IMG/VR virus record: IMGVR_UViG_3300043409_001213
Span: 1 to 25,047 of that record
Source: a virus
DNA length: 25,047 nucleotides
Reading direction: 5' to 3' (one strand)
Positions 1 through 17,821 of the stretch are shown in pieces. Numbering within the stretch: the stretch's first letter is position 1; each line of letters starts with the position of its first letter. A model generated the notes under the pieces. The model saw only the letters and a program-made list of their open reading frames with translations, searched no databases and was not told the DNA's origin. The translations under genes and the position numbers were made by a program.

Positions 1-1350
1 TCCTTCCTTTAGGAACATGCCAAAATTTTGAATTCCTATAGCAACTTTGTCAATAATAGGAACTACATTTCGTAGTTTCGAGAATAGGCTACCAATAGCC
101 CCTGTTGATTTGAACAGATCGACAATTTTCTTGATAGTTTCTACGACGATTCCGACGATCACTCCCGAAATTAAAGCCAACACCACAAAAATTTTGGTCA
201 AAATTCCACCACGACCATCTCGCATGTCCGTGAGGATAGCAATTTGCATATCGGCAGCACTAACCAAATTCTTTGCCCACTCAGGTATGTCGGAATCTTT
301 CTCTTTTTCTGCTTCTATTCTTGCTTGATAGTCTGCTTCCACCAAAGTGGTTTGAAAGCGTTGGGTCTCGTCCATGCTCTTGAAGATTTTGATCTGTTCA
401 TCAACATCTTTTTGTCGTTTTGTAGTTTCCTTTTCGGCGTTCTTAGCCGCCTTGATTTCAGCCACCGCCGCACCAGTTCCCTGCTTGATATACAACTCTT
501 GGAGTTCTTTCTTGACGGTATCTTTTTTGATGTTCTCTCTTGAGATGATCAGTTCCTTGACAATGCTGTCACGAACTTTGATGTCACTTGCTTGTCCCAT
601 CTTGAAACGATCTACGGCTTCTTTGTCTGTCCGATCAACCCCTGCATCGTTCATAGCACCTGTGACAGTTTCGTTGATGATTTTCAATGTCTCTAATGCA
701 AGCCCTGTCTTTTCCATACCACCAACGCCCGAAGACGCTGCTGCGATGTTTTTATCGAGGGAGGCCATTTTGTCTGCGACAATCTCTTGTCCTGCTTTTT
801 GCTTCAATGCAAAGTCATTAACAAACTCGATGAATTCGCTTGTGGATTTCTCAGCATCTTTTGCCAACAGTTCCAATTTAGACGCTATGTTTTTGTCGCC
901 GTCTGTGGTGGCTTTGAGGAGAATTCTGGCTTCTCTGACAGTCACCTCAGAATCGTCAGCCAAAATTTCGAGACTATAGTCTATTTCTTTTTGTAGAGTT
1001 TTGATTGCGGTTCCAACAAGACCCATATTCTTTTGGTTGTCTTCTTGCATCCGCAATGTTGTCCATAGTTCTTTTTCGGCTACTTCTAACGCTTCCTTGT
1101 CGTTTTCTTGTACCGCTATAAAACTTTTCTCTTGGGCAGCATCTATGCTTGTCTGATTGGTTTTCAGTCTCTCTGTGAGTTTTTCAAGTTGATCTGTTTG
1201 TTCTTGTTGTATTTTCAGTTGCTTCTCAAGAACATCAACCATTCCTTGGTCAAATCCCCCTGGAGGCATGCGAACATCAAGAATACTTCTCTTGTTGTCG
1301 CTTCCTGGTGCGGTGGTTCTGTTGTTGTTTGTTTCGCCTTGTTCTGCCAT
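1..1350 (-). CDS. Tape-measure-like tail protein, N-terminal part (runs off window)
   Basis: The frame is open from an ATG at 1350 to base 1, giving 450 residues of the N-terminal part. AGGA lies 8 bases before the start. Residues about 30-130 are rich in Gln, Glu and Lys and look like coiled coil. The middle is helical and Ala/Lys/Asp-rich. A hydrophobic segment at about residues 387-403 (IFVVLALISGVIVGIVV) could be a membrane span, followed by a Lys-rich amphipathic stretch. Long helix plus a hydrophobic segment is usual for tape measure proteins, which fill the tail tube and set its length. Position supports this: it follows the tube-type protein gp54, gp26 and a possible frameshift partner. 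The T4 counterpart would be gp29, but I see no recognisable gp29 motif, so the role is inferred from layout and composition. The C-terminal part is outside the window. Confidence 0.6.
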   Translation of the reverse strand, partial: MAEQGETNNNRTTAPGSDNKRSILDVRMPPGGFDQGMVDVLEKQLKIQQEQTDQLEKLTERLKTNQTSIDAAQEKSFIAVQENDKEALEVAEKELWTTLRMQEDNQKNMGLVGTAIKTLQKEIDYSLEILADDSEVTVREARILLKATTDGDKNIASKLELLAKDAEKSTSEFIEFVNDFALKQKAGQEIVADKMASLDKNIAAASSGVGGMEKTGLALETLKIINETVTGAMNDAGVDRTDKEAVDRFKMGQASDIKVRDSIVKELIISRENIKKDTVKKELQELYIKQGTGAAVAEIKAAKNAEKETTKRQKDVDEQIKIFKSMDETQRFQTTLVEADYQARIEAEKEKDSDIPEWAKNLVSAADMQIAILTDMRDGRGGILTKIFVVLALISGVIVGIVVETIKKIVDLFKSTGAIGSLFSKLRNVVPIIDKVAIGIQNFGMFLKEG

Positions 1351-1371: not shown

Positions 1372-1536
1372 TTAGTGTCTACTTTTTTCTTGCTCCATCT
1401 GTTCCTTTTCGTCCTTTAGGTGCTGTATCAGAAGTTCGATGTAGATTCGACGCTCCCAAGGAATCATGTTCTCAATTTCTTCGAGTGAATACTTGTGATG
1501 CTGAATCATCGCAAAATTCGTCTCGAAGTAGTTCAT
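1372..1536 (-). CDS. Small 54-codon frame after gp26, probable -1 frameshift extension
   Basis: The frame from ATG 1536 to TAA 1372 encodes 54 residues, starting MNYFETNFAMIQHHKYSLEE, with a central PWERRIYIELL motif and a charged Lys/Glu tail. PWER/YxxLL motifs are typical of downstream partners of phage tail-assembly chaperones (inference from general likeness). Nothing resembling a good ribosome-binding site precedes the ATG. The frame is open upstream past the ATG to the slippery TTTTTTC at the end of gp26 and lies exactly in the -1 register. The frame can therefore be made as a 63-residue extension of gp26, giving a fusion of about 298 residues. Independent initiation at 1536 is the alternative. 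It ends 21 bases before the tape-measure-like gene. Confidence 0.75.
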   Translation of the reverse strand: MNYFETNFAMIQHHKYSLEEIENMIPWERRIYIELLIQHLKDEKEQMEQEKSRH

Positions 1537-1559
1537 GAGTCCGTCATGAGAGGTCGATA

Positions 1560-2267
1560 CTAGAAAAAATCTTGAGCACCTCTTAAGGTGACGGGATCAA
1601 CATTGCCGCACTTGCACTTGTATTCGACTTCCTTCCGCAACTGAGGCATCGTCTCAAAGAATCCTGATAGTTCCTTGAACTGTGATTGTGTGAGATTGTC
1701 CAAGAACTCCCCCACTTCAGTTTCTTCAAGATCCTTCGTGGTGAATGTTCCCTTCGGGGTGTGAATCTTGTCGATACAAAGTGCCATGAGTCGAAATAGT
1801 CTTTGTGCTTCGGATTCCGTCTCTTGAATCTTCTCGATGTCTGAGAATTGAGGGTATCGCATATCGAGAATAACTTCCTTGGTGATCTCTACTGTGGATT
1901 TGTGGTTGCTGTTTCGTGTCGGCTCAACCAAAGAGAGATCAACCACAACTTCGTTGGTTACTCCACATTTCGAGCATTTGATCATCGGTTTTGCTGTCTC
2001 ACCTACAGACTTGCTGCGAATTTTCACAAAGAGATATTCAATGTCCATCATGGGAGATTCGGACATAGCCATCTTTCCAAACGTGCATGCGTTTACAACG
2101 TCCTGCATCGCTCGAAACATTTCTTTTTCGTTCTTGGATTCTGAAGCAATGAGGAGAATCTTTTCCTCTCGTACCAAAAATGGTCTATAGATGATTTTCT
2201 TGCCGTTGCTGGGCAAAATCAGTTCATGTGTTGGTGTTGCGGCAATTATGCCTGTCAATGTTCCCAT
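1560..2267 (-). CDS. 26: gp26-like baseplate hub assembly protein
   Basis: This 235-residue protein belongs to the T4 gp26 baseplate family (Pfam T4_baseplate). The family mark is seen near the N-terminus: a short beta region, then YRPFLVREEKILLIASES (residues 27-44). Cys98-x2-Cys101 and Cys218-x-Cys220 could bind one metal ion. In T4, gp26 is needed for hub assembly, and it may act as a chaperone rather than as a lasting virion part. AAAGGAG lies 10 bases before ATG 2267. The gene follows gp54 by 35 bases. Its last codons form a canonical -1 slippery sequence right before TAG, with the downstream small frame in the -1 register, so both a 235-residue product and a fusion of about 298 residues are likely. 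Confidence 0.88.
   Translation of the reverse strand: MGTLTGIIAATPTHELILPSNGKKIIYRPFLVREEKILLIASESKNEKEMFRAMQDVVNACTFGKMAMSESPMMDIEYLFVKIRSKSVGETAKPMIKCSKCGVTNEVVVDLSLVEPTRNSNHKSTVEITKEVILDMRYPQFSDIEKIQETESEAQRLFRLMALCIDKIHTPKGTFTTKDLEETEVGEFLDNLTQSQFKELSGFFETMPQLRKEVEYKCKCGNVDPVTLRGAQDFF
1563..1569 (-). promoter_or_regulatory. Candidate -1 ribosomal frameshift slippery site (T TTT TTC)
   Basis: The last codons of gp26 read GAT TTT TTC TAG, so the heptamer T TTT TTC fits the X XXY YYZ rule in the correct phase and is followed at once by the stop. After a -1 slip the ribosome reads CTA GTA TCG and continues without a stop through 54 further codons beyond ATG 1536. Downstream there are two possible stems: TCATGA-CGGAC-TCATGA (6 bp, 5-base loop, 1533-1549), beginning 13 bases after the heptamer, and CTTCGAG (1522-1528) with CTCGAAG (1479-1485), 7 bp around a long loop. 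Neither is strong, so the stimulator is uncertain. Confidence 0.65.
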
Positions 2268-3319: not shown

Positions 3320-3925
3320 TTACTTAGAATATTTAGCCGACCATTTCCAAACATCTTCACGGGATGCCCCCTTAAATTTCTCCAACGGCATAAAGGTCGT
3401 GATTTGCCACTCATCGGAGGGGATCAAATTTACCTTTGACACAATGTTCGAGAGGTAATACATCTTCAGGGCAGACCGAAAAGGTTTCAGTTTCGTTGCC
3501 GCCTTCAGATAGTTATATGTTGCTTTGAAGCGAGATGGGGGATTGTGAACATAGTCTGGGTTGGTCACGAATTTTAATAGGTTGTTCAAGAAGTTTGCAC
3601 GGACGGACGGGGAGAGGTAGTGGAGATTTAGCCCAAGAACGTTGTTTCCTCTCTTGTGGAGGAGAATCACAAGGGGGAAAGCATCCCAAAAAGGCAACGT
3701 GTTTTTTGTCCTTGGGTCATATCCGAAGAATAGCATTGAACCTTCCATAAGAGCAGAAGGTTGTTTGTTTGTCTTGGGATTGCTTTTGATAAAGTGCTGC
3801 GGATTCATCTGTGTTTGGATATTTGACAGATTTTTTGCCAGCCATCTGGTAGCCTGTTCGGATTGAAGATCCTTCCCCGAGCGGTCAAACTGACGCAATA
3901 CCCCTTGCACTGCTCTTTTCGTCAT
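3320..3925 (-). CDS. Conserved virion-cluster protein of unknown role (201 aa)
   Basis: ATG 3925 is chosen over ATG 3982 because it overlaps the upstream stop as ATGA and has GGAGGAG 6-7 bases before it. The product begins MTKRAVQGVLRQFDRSGK and has 201 residues. The centre holds GSMLFFGYDPRTKNTLPFWD, then a hydrophobic FPLVILL strand and LGLNLHYLSPSVRANFLNNL. I recall this block (FGYDPKxKxxLPYYDxFPLV, GxNxHYLxPxxR) in unassigned proteins of T4-like and other large phages. I do not know its biochemical role. It lies between the head-completion nuclease and gp54, so a virion or assembly job is likely. There are no membrane segments. Confidence 0.75.
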   Translation of the reverse strand: MTKRAVQGVLRQFDRSGKDLQSEQATRWLAKNLSNIQTQMNPQHFIKSNPKTNKQPSALMEGSMLFFGYDPRTKNTLPFWDAFPLVILLHKRGNNVLGLNLHYLSPSVRANFLNNLLKFVTNPDYVHNPPSRFKATYNYLKAATKLKPFRSALKMYYLSNIVSKVNLIPSDEWQITTFMPLEKFKGASREDVWKWSAKYSK

Positions 3926-4395
3926 GTCACTCCTCCAGTTTTCGCAAAGAGATTGTCTTCGGTTAGTAGTTTGAACTCCCACCCCCGAGTCTCACATACC
4001 TTCTGTGCGGCACTCCATTTTGCGCTATTAACCAACCAATTCTTCATCTGCAATATTTTGGACTTCGAAGTCTTCTTTGTCTTTGGTGGTTCTGGTTTCT
4101 TCGTTTGGGCTTTTGGTTTCACTTCAATTAGGTATTCCCGAGTTTTTCCGTCCTTCGACACCACTTTAACCCAAAAGTCAACAAAGTATCGGTGCATCCG
4201 ACCGTCAATGGGAGACATATATGGAATGATCACTTCCTCAGAAGACCATTGAATTATTGAGGACGTGTCATCACAAAAAACCATAAACTTCCGCTCCCAC
4301 AAAGACCTGTAGAAGCATGTTGTTGAGTCTCCTTTGTACTTTTCAGGATGCTTGGGTCGATACTTTCCTTTGTAACTCGTGTTTGAGTGCTTGAT
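3922..4395 (-). CDS. 4: gp4-like head completion nuclease, probable AUC start
   Basis: The core matches T4 gp4: FYRSLWERKFMVFCD, then SSEEVIIPYMSP, GRMHRYFVDFWVKV and YLIEVKPKAQ. T4 gp4 finishes packaged heads and is described as having a TnsA-like nuclease fold. The visible E...D...ExK pattern (E53, D73, E91, K93 if counted from 4395) fits that. The conserved family sequence clearly extends upstream of the only conventional start, TTG 4302, which would remove SYKGKYRPKHPEKYKGD and YRSL. The in-frame upstream stop is TAG 4423-4425, and no ATG, GTG or TTG lies between. AUC at 4393-4395 follows AAGGAG (4401-4406) by 5 bases and gives 157 residues, near T4 gp4's 150. A sequencing error converting ATG to ATC is the alternative. 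Confidence 0.85.
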   Translation of the reverse strand: MKHSNTSYKGKYRPKHPEKYKGDSTTCFYRSLWERKFMVFCDDTSSIIQWSSEEVIIPYMSPIDGRMHRYFVDFWVKVVSKDGKTREYLIEVKPKAQTKKPEPPKTKKTSKSKILQMKNWLVNSAKWSAAQKVCETRGWEFKLLTEDNLFAKTGGVT

Positions 4396-13480: not shown

Positions 13481-16400
13481 ATGGAACAAGACTCTTTTAA
13501 TCAACTTTCGAGCCTCGTTGAGGGTCGCCTTCCCGAATTCGTTCGTGTGGATCATCCCACACTTGTTGCGTTTTTGGAAGCATACTATGAGTGGTTGCAG
13601 ATCAAGGATCGGTCTGGTATTATCGTTAGTCCGATGGTACTTCGGGATGTCATTGACATCGACTCAAGCATGGATGAGTTTCTCACTCATTTCAAGCGAG
13701 AGTACCTTCTCGATTTCCCTGAACAACTAGCCATAGCAAAATCAACAGGAAAGCCCGTTGATGTCCGTAAGTTGATGAAAAACATCAAGTCTTTCTATCA
13801 GGCTAAGGGAACAGAGAAATCCTATGAGTTCTTGTTTCAAATTCTGTACAACACATCTGTAGAATTCTACTATCCAAAGAAGGACATCTTGCGGGTGTCT
13901 GATGGTAAGTGGTATGAGAAAGTGTCGATTAAGATAACAAACGCCATCGGAGATCGTATTTTCGATTCCGTTGGAAGAATAGTCTATCAGAAAAATTCAG
14001 AAGGGAAAATCGTATCATCTGCAAAGGTGATAGATGCGACTCTTTATCAGCAAGGACAGTACGAAGTTGCTGAACTGATTCTCACAGGGAGAAACGGAAC
14101 ATTTTCTATCGGTAGAGAGATTTCTTTTGATATCGAGAACGAAACATTACAAGAACTTCGGGTTTATAGTGTAATTGGTTCGGTCACAATCAATGATGGC
14201 GGCACAGGATATGCTGTTGGGGACAGAGTTCTCTTCTCATCGGTGGGTGGGGACAGCGGTGAGGGGGCGATTGGTACGGTCTCTCTTGTTACGGCTGCGG
14301 GAGCAATCCGCCGTCTTCGGATGGATAACTTTGGTATCAACTACACAGCAGTTCCGACAGTACAAATACAATCGTTTGGGGGTAGCGGATTTTCTGGAAC
14401 AGCAGTTGTTTCCTCGACATGTCAGTCAGAAGGATATTACCTCAATTCTGATGGTCGTATTGGAACAAATAAGGTCTTGCAGGACAACCACTATTATCAA
14501 GACTATTCATATGTCCTGAAAACTGAAGTCGTGGTTGATGAGTATCGGGATACACTTCGCCGTCTCATCCATCCTGCTGGCACAGCAATGTTTGGTCAGG
14601 TTCTCATCAAGAGATGCTCACGGGAGGATGTGTTCAATTCCTCGGCACTCATTCGATATGAAGTTCCGATTATCGGACATTACATCCCATATACCTTCAC
14701 AACATATGAAAATTTGCAGGATTGGTTCTCTACTCCAGGCACAGGAAACAACACAGGCACAAATGTTGTTGCTGGGTATGATCCGACACTTCACGATGGA
14801 TATATTCATTGGGGAGGAAATGATGATTTTGGGATTCCACTCAGCGGCAATCCGTTTAGGTTTAATGCACCGTTCATAAATGCAACAGGACCAACATATT
14901 CGCCGCTTGGTCTTAGTGGATTCCAAAATGCAGACCCATTTTGGATTGTATACGAACATCCAAACAGGAAAATATCTGAGAGAGTTATCGCACAGATTTG
15001 GAGAGGTCAGTTAGCAGATTTTTCTAGGTGGAATGAGCGAGTCACTGTCACGGGCGGACAAATGGCCGACAGTTGGTGGGACGAATTTGAGAACGATCCA
15101 ACACTCAACAAGAAATATGCGTTCCTTCAATACGACAAAAACTCAGCATTCCGAAAGATAACAGCCAGATCATTTTTCAATATGCCAATCGGAGAGGGGT
15201 TTGATTGTAGGACAGAATCTGTTGAAAAATGGGCAAAACCTTTGGTGAAGATACACAATCCACTCAATGGAGAAACGATCACAAGTGTGATCAGCGCAGA
15301 TTCTCCGTTGAATGTCCAATTTACCATTGAAAACTTTGAAAATCTTGCGCTTCGTTTTGGTGGTAAGTTTGTTCGTGTTTGGTTGGATGGGTCACATCTT
15401 ATTGTGCTAAATTTGGGTGTTTTCACGACACCAATAACAACCTTGTCGGGAGGAGTGCATAACATTTTGGTTGAGGTTCTTGACGAGAATTACGTTCCCC
15501 TTATGGGAATGTCTGATAGTGTTGTTTTTGGTATTGATTCCTTTGTTTCGTGTTGTTCAGCGGATGGGAATGTATGTGCCAACAAAACAGTCAGCGATTG
15601 TGTTGCTTCTGGTGGAAGAGTGTTGTCAAATTGTGCCGATTGTTTCCCGCCTTCGATTTGTTGTAATTCCCTTTTGGGTTTGTGTGTAAAAGATCTGTCT
15701 CCGACAAAATGTTTGCAGAATTTGGGAACTGTATTGCCTGGGACAAATTGTGATGATTGTGCGACTGCACCTTCTATCCTGTGTTGCATTCCCCCTAATG
15801 CGACGTGTGTGAGTGTATCTACCAACGGAGAATGTGTCCTTATGGGGGGGGTGGTTGTGTCTTCATGTGTTGATTGTGTTCCTATTGCTCCTGTGGTTGG
15901 TGTTTGTTGTGATTCAACTCAGGGCGATTGTGTGATCAATGTTTCCCCTTTCGTGTGTGAAACCATTTTTCAAGGAACATCACTTCCAGGAAACACATGT
16001 GATGTTTGTGATACTTCACGCAACGTAAACTGTTGCAGCGGAGATGCGACAGGAATATGCACAAGAGATCAAGACGCAGAAGAATGCGAACAAATCGTCA
16101 ATGGATGGGTTGTTGATGATTGTTTGAGTTGTTTTACCACATGTTGTTTGCCAAACGAAACGTGCCGATTGAACCTAAGTCCTGAAGAATGTGCAGGATT
16201 AACTGGAACCTTTTTTGCCCGACAAGCAGATTGTTCGTTGTGTACTGCTGTTGAGGTTGAGTGCTGTTTATCCGATGGATCTTGTGTGCCTGACACAGGA
16301 GGCGGAATATCATGTTCTCAAGCAGGGGGCAGTACCACAATACCATGTGCCGAATGTATGAATAACAGAATTGTGAACTGTTGTAAGCCTGGTTTTGTGT

Positions 16401-17821
16401 GTGCATCTGATGAGACAGCAATAGCATGCACCACTTCAGGTGGGACTGTCCTCAAAGAGAATGAAAGTTGTGAGAACGATTGTTTTTCGCCTGAATTTAA
16501 GATCTTGGTTGACTCAATCCCAACCACAGGTGATTTGATTATCGACAACACATACCGCAGCATGTTCGCAAACTTGGGTGTGGGGATGGTTCACACTATC
16601 AATGTGGGAGATGTTATTGCCGTAGGAGGCTTTCCCACACAAGTTATGCTTGTGAACCCTTCTGTCCTTGGTGTGGGTGGTGTTGTCCCAAATATTAGTG
16701 CGATTATGAATTTTCTTTTGTCTCGGGGGATAGAACTCAATTCACCCACTACACATTATGTTTCCTTCAATTTCAGCAAAACTGTGTGGGAATCTTTGGT
16801 GTTGGGTGTGGGAGATGATGTTGTTAATGGGACTAATAGTACCAGTATCATGGATGCTGTGAGGCCACTTATTGCTATTTTAACCTCTATTTTTGGTGCG
16901 AATGTTCATTTTTCGGTTTCAGGATATCCCTCCGTGCAGATTTTTTCGGGCAATTATGGGGGAAGTCCTAACGACCCTAACGGAGGGTGGTATCAGACAA
17001 CATCGGAACTACAACAAGCAAGAATCGATTGGTCTGCTCAACAATTTGAGCCAGCATATGTCCCAACATCATTAAATGGAGTGGGACTTGGTTGGTCGAA
17101 TCCTCAGTTGGTTGACTATTCCCCAACACAGGCATCGTTTAATGGTGGACTCTTGATTCCCTCAGATAACGGATTTGATGGGGTTGATTTGGAATATCAA
17201 TTTGATAGACAGGGACAAAGGTTCTACAAATTCCGAAGGGCAAATGTACAATCTTCTAATATCATTGAGGCAGAATTGGCTCTTGGTTTGAATTATGAAA
17301 CAATCCCAATGGTTGATCGGTATTTCTCAGGGAACAGTAATGATGCAAACTTTTACTACAAGGACGGGACAGGTAGACTAATCCCATCTGATGATGTGGT
17401 TGGCTTTGTTGGAGAATTGAAGAGTGACCCTTTGGTCAATATTAATGGAATTTTTCTCCACACACAAACAAAATACATGGCAGCAGATCTCGCATGTATG
17501 CCAACAATTTCTGTGCCTGGAGATGTTGACTTTGTGGTTCCTCTATCAATCCCAGAATGGGGATCGTGGTTTACAGGAACGGTAGCCCAATGGCAAAGTT
17601 ATTATTCAACATTCTCAATTGAACAAAAGAAAGTTCAAGAGAGGATTCGAGAATCTTCTGTGCTTCTTTTTTATGCTGGTGTCCCTCCCTTTGATGTTAG
17701 TGGGACTGCTGCCCCCTTGTTGTTTAGTGGGTGGGGCGATCCTGAATTTAAGGTTGACTTGATTATGAAATACAACGATTACACTCTAAACATAATTCAA
17801 AGGATCAGAAACCTTCCATAA
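13481..17821 (+). CDS. gp7-like giant baseplate wedge protein with Cys-rich repeats
   Basis: The product has 1446 residues, longer than T4 gp7 (1032). The N-terminal region begins with LPEFVRVDHPTLVAFLEAYY and VVLRD-type motifs, then KSFYQAKGTEKSYEFLFQIL, as in the gp7-position proteins of T4-like marine phages. Residues about 330-380 hold YYQDYSYVLKTEVVVDEYRD and HPAGTAMFGQVLI. Residues about 587-688 form an Ig-like domain (FVRVWLDGSH...LSGGVHNILVEVLDENYVPL). Residues 691-1001 are eight six-cysteine repeats. Residues 1002-1446 are a separate unassigned domain with GFDGVDLEYQF near 1230, possibly an alpha/beta enzyme-like fold. In T4, gp7 starts wedge assembly. That role is inferred from place (after gp6, before gp8) and the N-terminal pattern. 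Confidence 0.8.
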   Translation: MEQDSFNQLSSLVEGRLPEFVRVDHPTLVAFLEAYYEWLQIKDRSGIIVSPMVLRDVIDIDSSMDEFLTHFKREYLLDFPEQLAIAKSTGKPVDVRKLMKNIKSFYQAKGTEKSYEFLFQILYNTSVEFYYPKKDILRVSDGKWYEKVSIKITNAIGDRIFDSVGRIVYQKNSEGKIVSSAKVIDATLYQQGQYEVAELILTGRNGTFSIGREISFDIENETLQELRVYSVIGSVTINDGGTGYAVGDRVLFSSVGGDSGEGAIGTVSLVTAAGAIRRLRMDNFGINYTAVPTVQIQSFGGSGFSGTAVVSSTCQSEGYYLNSDGRIGTNKVLQDNHYYQDYSYVLKTEVVVDEYRDTLRRLIHPAGTAMFGQVLIKRCSREDVFNSSALIRYEVPIIGHYIPYTFTTYENLQDWFSTPGTGNNTGTNVVAGYDPTLHDGYIHWGGNDDFGIPLSGNPFRFNAPFINATGPTYSPLGLSGFQNADPFWIVYEHPNRKISERVIAQIWRGQLADFSRWNERVTVTGGQMADSWWDEFENDPTLNKKYAFLQYDKNSAFRKITARSFFNMPIGEGFDCRTESVEKWAKPLVKIHNPLNGETITSVISADSPLNVQFTIENFENLALRFGGKFVRVWLDGSHLIVLNLGVFTTPITTLSGGVHNILVEVLDENYVPLMGMSDSVVFGIDSFVSCCSADGNVCANKTVSDCVASGGRVLSNCADCFPPSICCNSLLGLCVKDLSPTKCLQNLGTVLPGTNCDDCATAPSILCCIPPNATCVSVSTNGECVLMGGVVVSSCVDCVPIAPVVGVCCDSTQGDCVINVSPFVCETIFQGTSLPGNTCDVCDTSRNVNCCSGDATGICTRDQDAEECEQIVNGWVVDDCLSCFTTCCLPNETCRLNLSPEECAGLTGTFFARQADCSLCTAVEVECCLSDGSCVPDTGGGISCSQAGGSTTIPCAECMNNRIVNCCKPGFVCASDETAIACTTSGGTVLKENESCENDCFSPEFKILVDSIPTTGDLIIDNTYRSMFANLGVGMVHTINVGDVIAVGGFPTQVMLVNPSVLGVGGVVPNISAIMNFLLSRGIELNSPTTHYVSFNFSKTVWESLVLGVGDDVVNGTNSTSIMDAVRPLIAILTSIFGANVHFSVSGYPSVQIFSGNYGGSPNDPNGGWYQTTSELQQARIDWSAQQFEPAYVPTSLNGVGLGWSNPQLVDYSPTQASFNGGLLIPSDNGFDGVDLEYQFDRQGQRFYKFRRANVQSSNIIEAELALGLNYETIPMVDRYFSGNSNDANFYYKDGTGRLIPSDDVVGFVGELKSDPLVNINGIFLHTQTKYMAADLACMPTISVPGDVDFVVPLSIPEWGSWFTGTVAQWQSYYSTFSIEQKKVQERIRESSVLLFYAGVPPFDVSGTAAPLLFSGWGDPEFKVDLIMKYNDYTLNIIQRIRNLP
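15551..16483 (+). repeat. Eight tandem six-cysteine repeats inside the gp7-like protein
   Basis: Each unit of about 39 residues reads CC-x(4-7)-C-x(7-9)-C-x(9-13)-C-x(2-3)-C, for example CCLPNETCRLNLSPEEC in unit six. The eight double-Cys starts are spaced evenly over residues 691-1001 and give 48 cysteines. Units differ in sequence, so this is an old protein-level repeat, not a recent DNA duplication. Most cysteines use TGT. The pattern resembles CC-x-G-x-C-x(7)-C-x-x-GG repeats that I recall from secreted bacterial proteins. Confidence 0.85.

Follow-up and report, generated by a model that had tools for sequence, protein, structure and literature searches.

A predicted -1 frameshift at the end of gene 26 that would join a gp51 segment to a tail-assembly chaperone in T4-like phages

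Short and long tail-assembly chaperones in phages

A tail chaperone whose long form is made by frameshifting is a switch of a kind known in phages, and the principle is already in the literature. The slippery sequence in lambda is G_GGA_AAG. The tail assembly chaperone genes of T4-like phages were reportedly the subject of Vladimirov, Gautam & Davidson 2022 (Virology 566:9-15). In a review of T4, gp26 and gp51 are both described as hub assembly chaperones, and gp51 is needed for assembly and absent from the particle (PMC3004832). In the paper on PRFect (PMC10885494), Vladimirov, Gautam & Davidson 2022 is the citation given for T4-like phages that have two genes, one short and one long and fused, instead of frameshifting. 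No paper naming a gp26/gp51 frameshift in cyanophages was found in the literature accessible to us, which excluded Vladimirov et al. 2022.

The gp26-gp51 junction in the window

The window, the whole 25,047 nt stretch that was analysed here, contains both features of the gp26/gp51 family, a PF12322 domain and the C-terminal segment of gp51 (Table 1). The gp26 gene product matches PF12322 (E-value 9.4e-57) and PHROG 150, 'baseplate hub' (6.6e-59), while a 54-aa part of the small downstream frame matches PHROG 634, 'baseplate hub assembly catalyst' or gp51 (1.6e-23), as well as the far C-terminus of PHROG 150 (1.4e-5). By homology, the small frame encodes gp51's C-terminal segment. At the junction the minus strand reads AAGAGGTGCTCAAGA TTTTTTC TAG TATCGACC. 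The final codons of gp26, GAT TTT TTC TAG, place the heptamer T_TTT_TTC (1569-1563) in the phase of gp26 as X XXY YYZ, with the TAG stop (1562-1560) immediately 3' of it. The -1 frame runs without interruption from 1596 to a stop at 1374-1372, and after a slip it would consist of LVSTSHDGL followed by the 54-aa ORF that begins at ATG 1536, 63 codons in all. The predicted fusion is 235+9+54 = 298 aa. The initial annotation had described a phased heptamer touching the gp26 stop, a following frame at exactly -1 with 63 open codons and a fusion of about 298 residues, and the window sequence agrees on each point. No second in-phase T_TTT_TTY was found among the 16 main genes of the window.

Table 1. 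Coordinates of features at the gp26-gp51 junction in the window
Feature	Position	Strand	Basis
gp26, putative short tail-assembly-chaperone form, 235 aa, T4_baseplate family	1560..2267	-	PF12322, PHROG 150
Purine-rich SD-like AAGAGGTG, putative stimulator	1577..1584	-	SD-like tetramers at -15 to -12 in most relatives
Slippery heptamer T_TTT_TTC	1563..1569	-	Sequence; kept in relatives; synonymous constraint
Predicted -1 frame extension, 63 codons, gp51 C-terminal segment	1372..1563	-	PHROG 634, open frame
6-bp hairpin downstream of slip site, not conserved	1533..1549	-	Predicted fold; no consensus structure, 30 relatives
Downstream gene, at least 450 aa, runs off window edge, probable tape measure	1..1350	-	Position only

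Upstream of gp26 is a tail-tube-like gene (PHROG 45 and 3629), and the ORF downstream of the gp51 segment had no family match in Pfam or PHROG searches. Elsewhere in the window, the head-closure protein (gp4-like, PHROG 218) encoded at 3922-4302 on the minus strand matches a TnsA-like endonuclease N-terminal Pfam model (1.6e-23), and a very long ORF of 1446 aa at 13481-17821 on the plus strand carries, within its middle third, numerous Cys-rich repeats of a CCxxxGxC-like kind.

Family, gene position and T4 genetics support the proposal that gp26 is a tail-assembly chaperone, as does a structural match of weak-to-moderate strength. For the window gp26, an AlphaFold2 model built on 57 relatives had a mean pLDDT of 92.7. 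Foldseek returned no significant match to this model in the PDB (E > 1), and a PDB sequence search with the gp26 profile likewise gave no match and no similarity to solved chaperones. When VIA-align was applied to Foldseek's top 1000 chains, the best match was 3fgx (Z 7.9, 85 residues, 4.0 A), followed by the HK97 tail assembly chaperone 2ob9 (Z 7.8, 87 residues, 4.6 A) and 3klu (Z 7.0), the structure of YqbN, an XkdN-like phage chaperone; the next entry had a Z of 4.2. As Z values below 8 are middling, the chaperone fold is supported rather than proven.

Conservation of the slippery site and expression of the gp51 segment

Related loci were gathered from viral contigs, using four gp26 queries, and from annotated phage records. 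Both pieces, as defined by HMMs for gp26 and gp51, were present in 219 loci. One near-duplicate of the window was set aside ahead of redundancy removal, and removing loci at >=80% nucleotide identity left a nonredundant set of 105; as the loci share ancestry, neither count represents independent events. Isolates with this layout include Kyanoviridae, KVP40-like Straboviridae, Aeromonas phage 65, Sinorhizobium phage phiM7 and Pseudomonas phage Milchi. The gp51 segment is in the -1 frame in 219/219 loci, and a phase-correct T_TTT_TTC or T_TTT_TTT was found shortly ahead of the gp26 stop in every one of them. Relatives that keep both proteins but lack the heptamer or the -1 register had been named in the initial annotation as evidence that would count against a frameshift, and there were no such exceptions among the 219 loci or the 105 nonredundant ones. 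Ackermannviridae are a partial counter-case, in that gp26 is followed there by a -1 frame weakly like gp51 and a canonical heptamer is absent.

In the nonredundant set the heptamer is T_TTT_TTC in 84/105 loci and T_TTT_TTT in the other 21/105, and the distance from its start to the gp26 stop is 7, 10, 13 or 31 nt. Elsewhere in the gp26 genes of the relatives an in-phase T_TTT_TTY occurs at 2.6e-4 per codon, against 105/105 at the slip site. The codon that precedes FF is GAT, AGT, TCT, AAT, GCT or ACT, encoding D, S, N, A or T, and ends in T in 105/105 loci where 69.5 were expected from synonymous usage. The first Phe codon is TTT in 105/105 (77.7 expected). Because the residue before FF varies while its third base is fixed, and the first Phe is always encoded by TTT, we conclude that the constraint acts on the DNA and not on the protein alone.

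An independent start for gp51 is wanting in much of the family. In 58/105 relatives, including the nearest relatives of the window (L001-L003), the first 16 codons of the -1 frame contain no ATG, GTG or TTG, while the peptide at the start of this frame is conserved (FFRIALSHDSLENYYxTNFALM-like); an ATG is found within the same 16 codons in 34/105. The initial annotation gave ATG 1536 no ribosome site of its own, and the anti-SD pairing before it is indeed weak (-3.2 kcal/mol, compared with -7.5 at the gp26 start), though several other window genes likewise begin without a good ribosome site. In the S-PM2, P-HM1, phiM7 and ValKK3 records gp51 is annotated as a separate gene, with starts that differ between records. 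It is unannotated or annotated in truncated form in the S-BM3, Aeromonas 65 and DSL-LC02 records, and was missed altogether in that of S-BM3, apparently because it has no normal start codon.

As the segment is in the -1 frame in all 219 loci, the heptamer is held at synonymous positions and more than half of the nonredundant relatives have no start codon ahead of the conserved gp51 region, gp51 looks like a frameshift extension. On sequence evidence, the end of gp26 very probably carries a -1 frameshift site that gives a short and a long tail-assembly chaperone, with the gp51 segment as the extension. In this scheme gp26 would be the short form. A minority of ribosomes, on reaching T_TTT_TTC immediately ahead of the stop, would slip back by one base and continue as FF-LVSTSHDGLMNYFETNF, and the added gp51 segment would bring the long form to about 298 residues. 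If lambda gpG/gpGT is a guide, the short form would be present in many copies and the long form in few, and these may bind the tape measure and the tube protein while the tail is assembled; the chaperone copies would be absent from the virion.

The alternative that survives best combines the frameshift fusion with some free gp51 tail made by reinitiation at nearby start codons, and we regard it as unlikely. In some lineages the -1 frame has kept an ATG, at its codon 5 or 11, a TAATG overlap without a heptamer is present in some Ackermannviridae (L250-L252) and in Vibrio phage D507, and a free 54-aa product could be made from ATG 1536 in the window; however, start codons are not conserved family-wide and the pairing before ATG 1536 is weak. 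It is less probable still that gp51 is simply a separate small protein with its own start codon and the heptamer an accident of codon usage. ATG 1536, the ATG found in 34 of the relatives and the four records with gp51 as its own gene fit such an arrangement, but most relatives have no start codon ahead of the conserved segment, the start positions vary among those that do, the heptamer is invariant at synonymous sites and gp51 of T4 is fused in full. That one gene was split by a sequencing or assembly error, a base missing from a homopolymer, is barely conceivable and was ruled out: the break falls within a run of six T, but the identical -1 split occurs at the same run in the 219 loci, drawn from different assemblies, as well as in isolate genomes that are finished.

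Two candidate stimulators of the predicted frameshift were considered. The two small downstream stems described in the initial annotation are present in the predicted fold of the window, a 6-bp stem (1549-1544/1538-1533, minus strand) and a 7-bp stem (1528-1522/1485-1479, minus strand), and this fold has a z of -2.5 over 103 nt, with 1/200 shuffles equally stable. Neither is conserved across 30 relatives, for which RNAalifold predicted zero pairs, so they cannot count as part of the signal and a conserved stimulatory RNA structure was rejected. Strong single folds were found in ValKK3 (z -4.4), S-PM2 (z -2.5) and Milchi (z -2.8), but the closest relatives, L001 and L002, have no strong single fold downstream of the slip. 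Such a stem may thus be lineage-specific, and is not a feature of the family. Upstream, the GAGG of AAGAGGTG begins 13 nt before the heptamer, and the anti-SD energy at the purine tract 12-15 nt upstream averages -6.2 kcal/mol, compared with -3.1 for windows elsewhere in gp26. Synonymous resampling accounts for most of this signal (mean z -0.8, mean rank 0.39), and T4 gp26 keeps the conserved Gly codon of the tract without a frameshift. The enrichment at the right spacing is mostly explained by that Gly codon and the conserved (E/K/R)G residues, so an internal Shine-Dalgarno stimulator was left out of the main reading, though a stimulatory role for the purine tract is possible.

T4 paralogues and comparison with known systems

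In T4, gp51 (249 aa) matches PF12322 over residues 1-201 (3.9e-52), contains the PHROG 634 segment over residues 147-246 and matches PHROG 150 over residues 3-248, while gp26 (208 aa) matches PF12322 alone; gp26 and gp51 of Acinetobacter phage AbTZA1 have this domain make-up too. The T4 gp26 gene ends GAG TTC TTT GAG TTA CTA TAA, in which FF is retained and the heptamer lost. Judged by these matches, T4 gp51 is an in-frame version of the predicted fusion, and T4 gp26 corresponds to the short form but has no heptamer. Searches of whole records found two PF12322 genes in T4, AbTZA1 and another T4-type genome, and one in S-PM2, Mosig, P-HM1, DSL-LC02, phiM7, ValKK3, Aeromonas 65 and Milchi. The two chaperone forms would thus have either of two origins, a single frameshifting gene or a pair of genes, one short and one fused in frame.

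In Ackermannviridae (Kuttervirus and others; L236-L253 and L038) and in Vibrio phage D507, the PF12322 gene also has a -1 frame with weak similarity to gp51 behind it, but the heptamer is absent. The Ackermannviridae junction is conserved as GARATTTTCATYTAATKTTTGAA, with TAATG in some genomes and TAATT in others; at TAATT, an AUU start or other recoding is possible. The genomes in these two groups that were tested whole have a single PF12322 gene. A broader scheme, possible but on balance doubtful, is that a bare T_TTT_TTY with no conserved structure drives the shift in marine T4-like phages, that T4 gp51, an essential protein that has long been a puzzle, is the frozen in-frame product of the same event and that in Ackermannviridae another way of joining or co-translating the two parts has taken the place of the slip site.

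If the predicted frameshift operates, the annotation of genes 26 and 51 in cyanophages, pelagiphages and related T4-like phages would change from two genes to one gene with two products. Public records list gp51 as its own gene or miss it, as opposed to a frameshift extension of gp26.

T4 gp26 and gp51 (Straboviridae) belong to the same families as the products of the window locus, with PF12322 in gp26 and in residues 1-201 of gp51 and PHROG 634 in the gp51 tail, but in T4 the short and the long form each have a gene of their own, the two genes being divergent, where the window has one gene with a slippery site. The SD-like purines at -15 to -12 upstream of the heptamer recall the internal Shine-Dalgarno of dnaX-type frameshifts, in which it is combined with a slippery site and a stem-loop, although at the gp26 site the SD is in weak excess over synonymous resampling and there is no conserved stem. 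With lambda G/GT, HK97 gp13 and other -1 chaperones the locus shares a slippery site at the end of the short frame and a -1 extension and, if the downstream ORF is the tape measure gene as its position suggests, also the layout before that gene. The gp26 model gave a weak-to-moderate fold match to HK97 gp13 (2ob9), but gp26 has no sequence similarity to solved chaperones and the slippery sequence is a different one. In Vandenendeviridae and Andersonviridae (PMC12846349), a slip at poly-T close to where the short form ends, an open -1 frame and a misannotated downstream part are all found as here, though in other phage families and with a GTTTTT motif in place of the T_TTT_TTY of the window.
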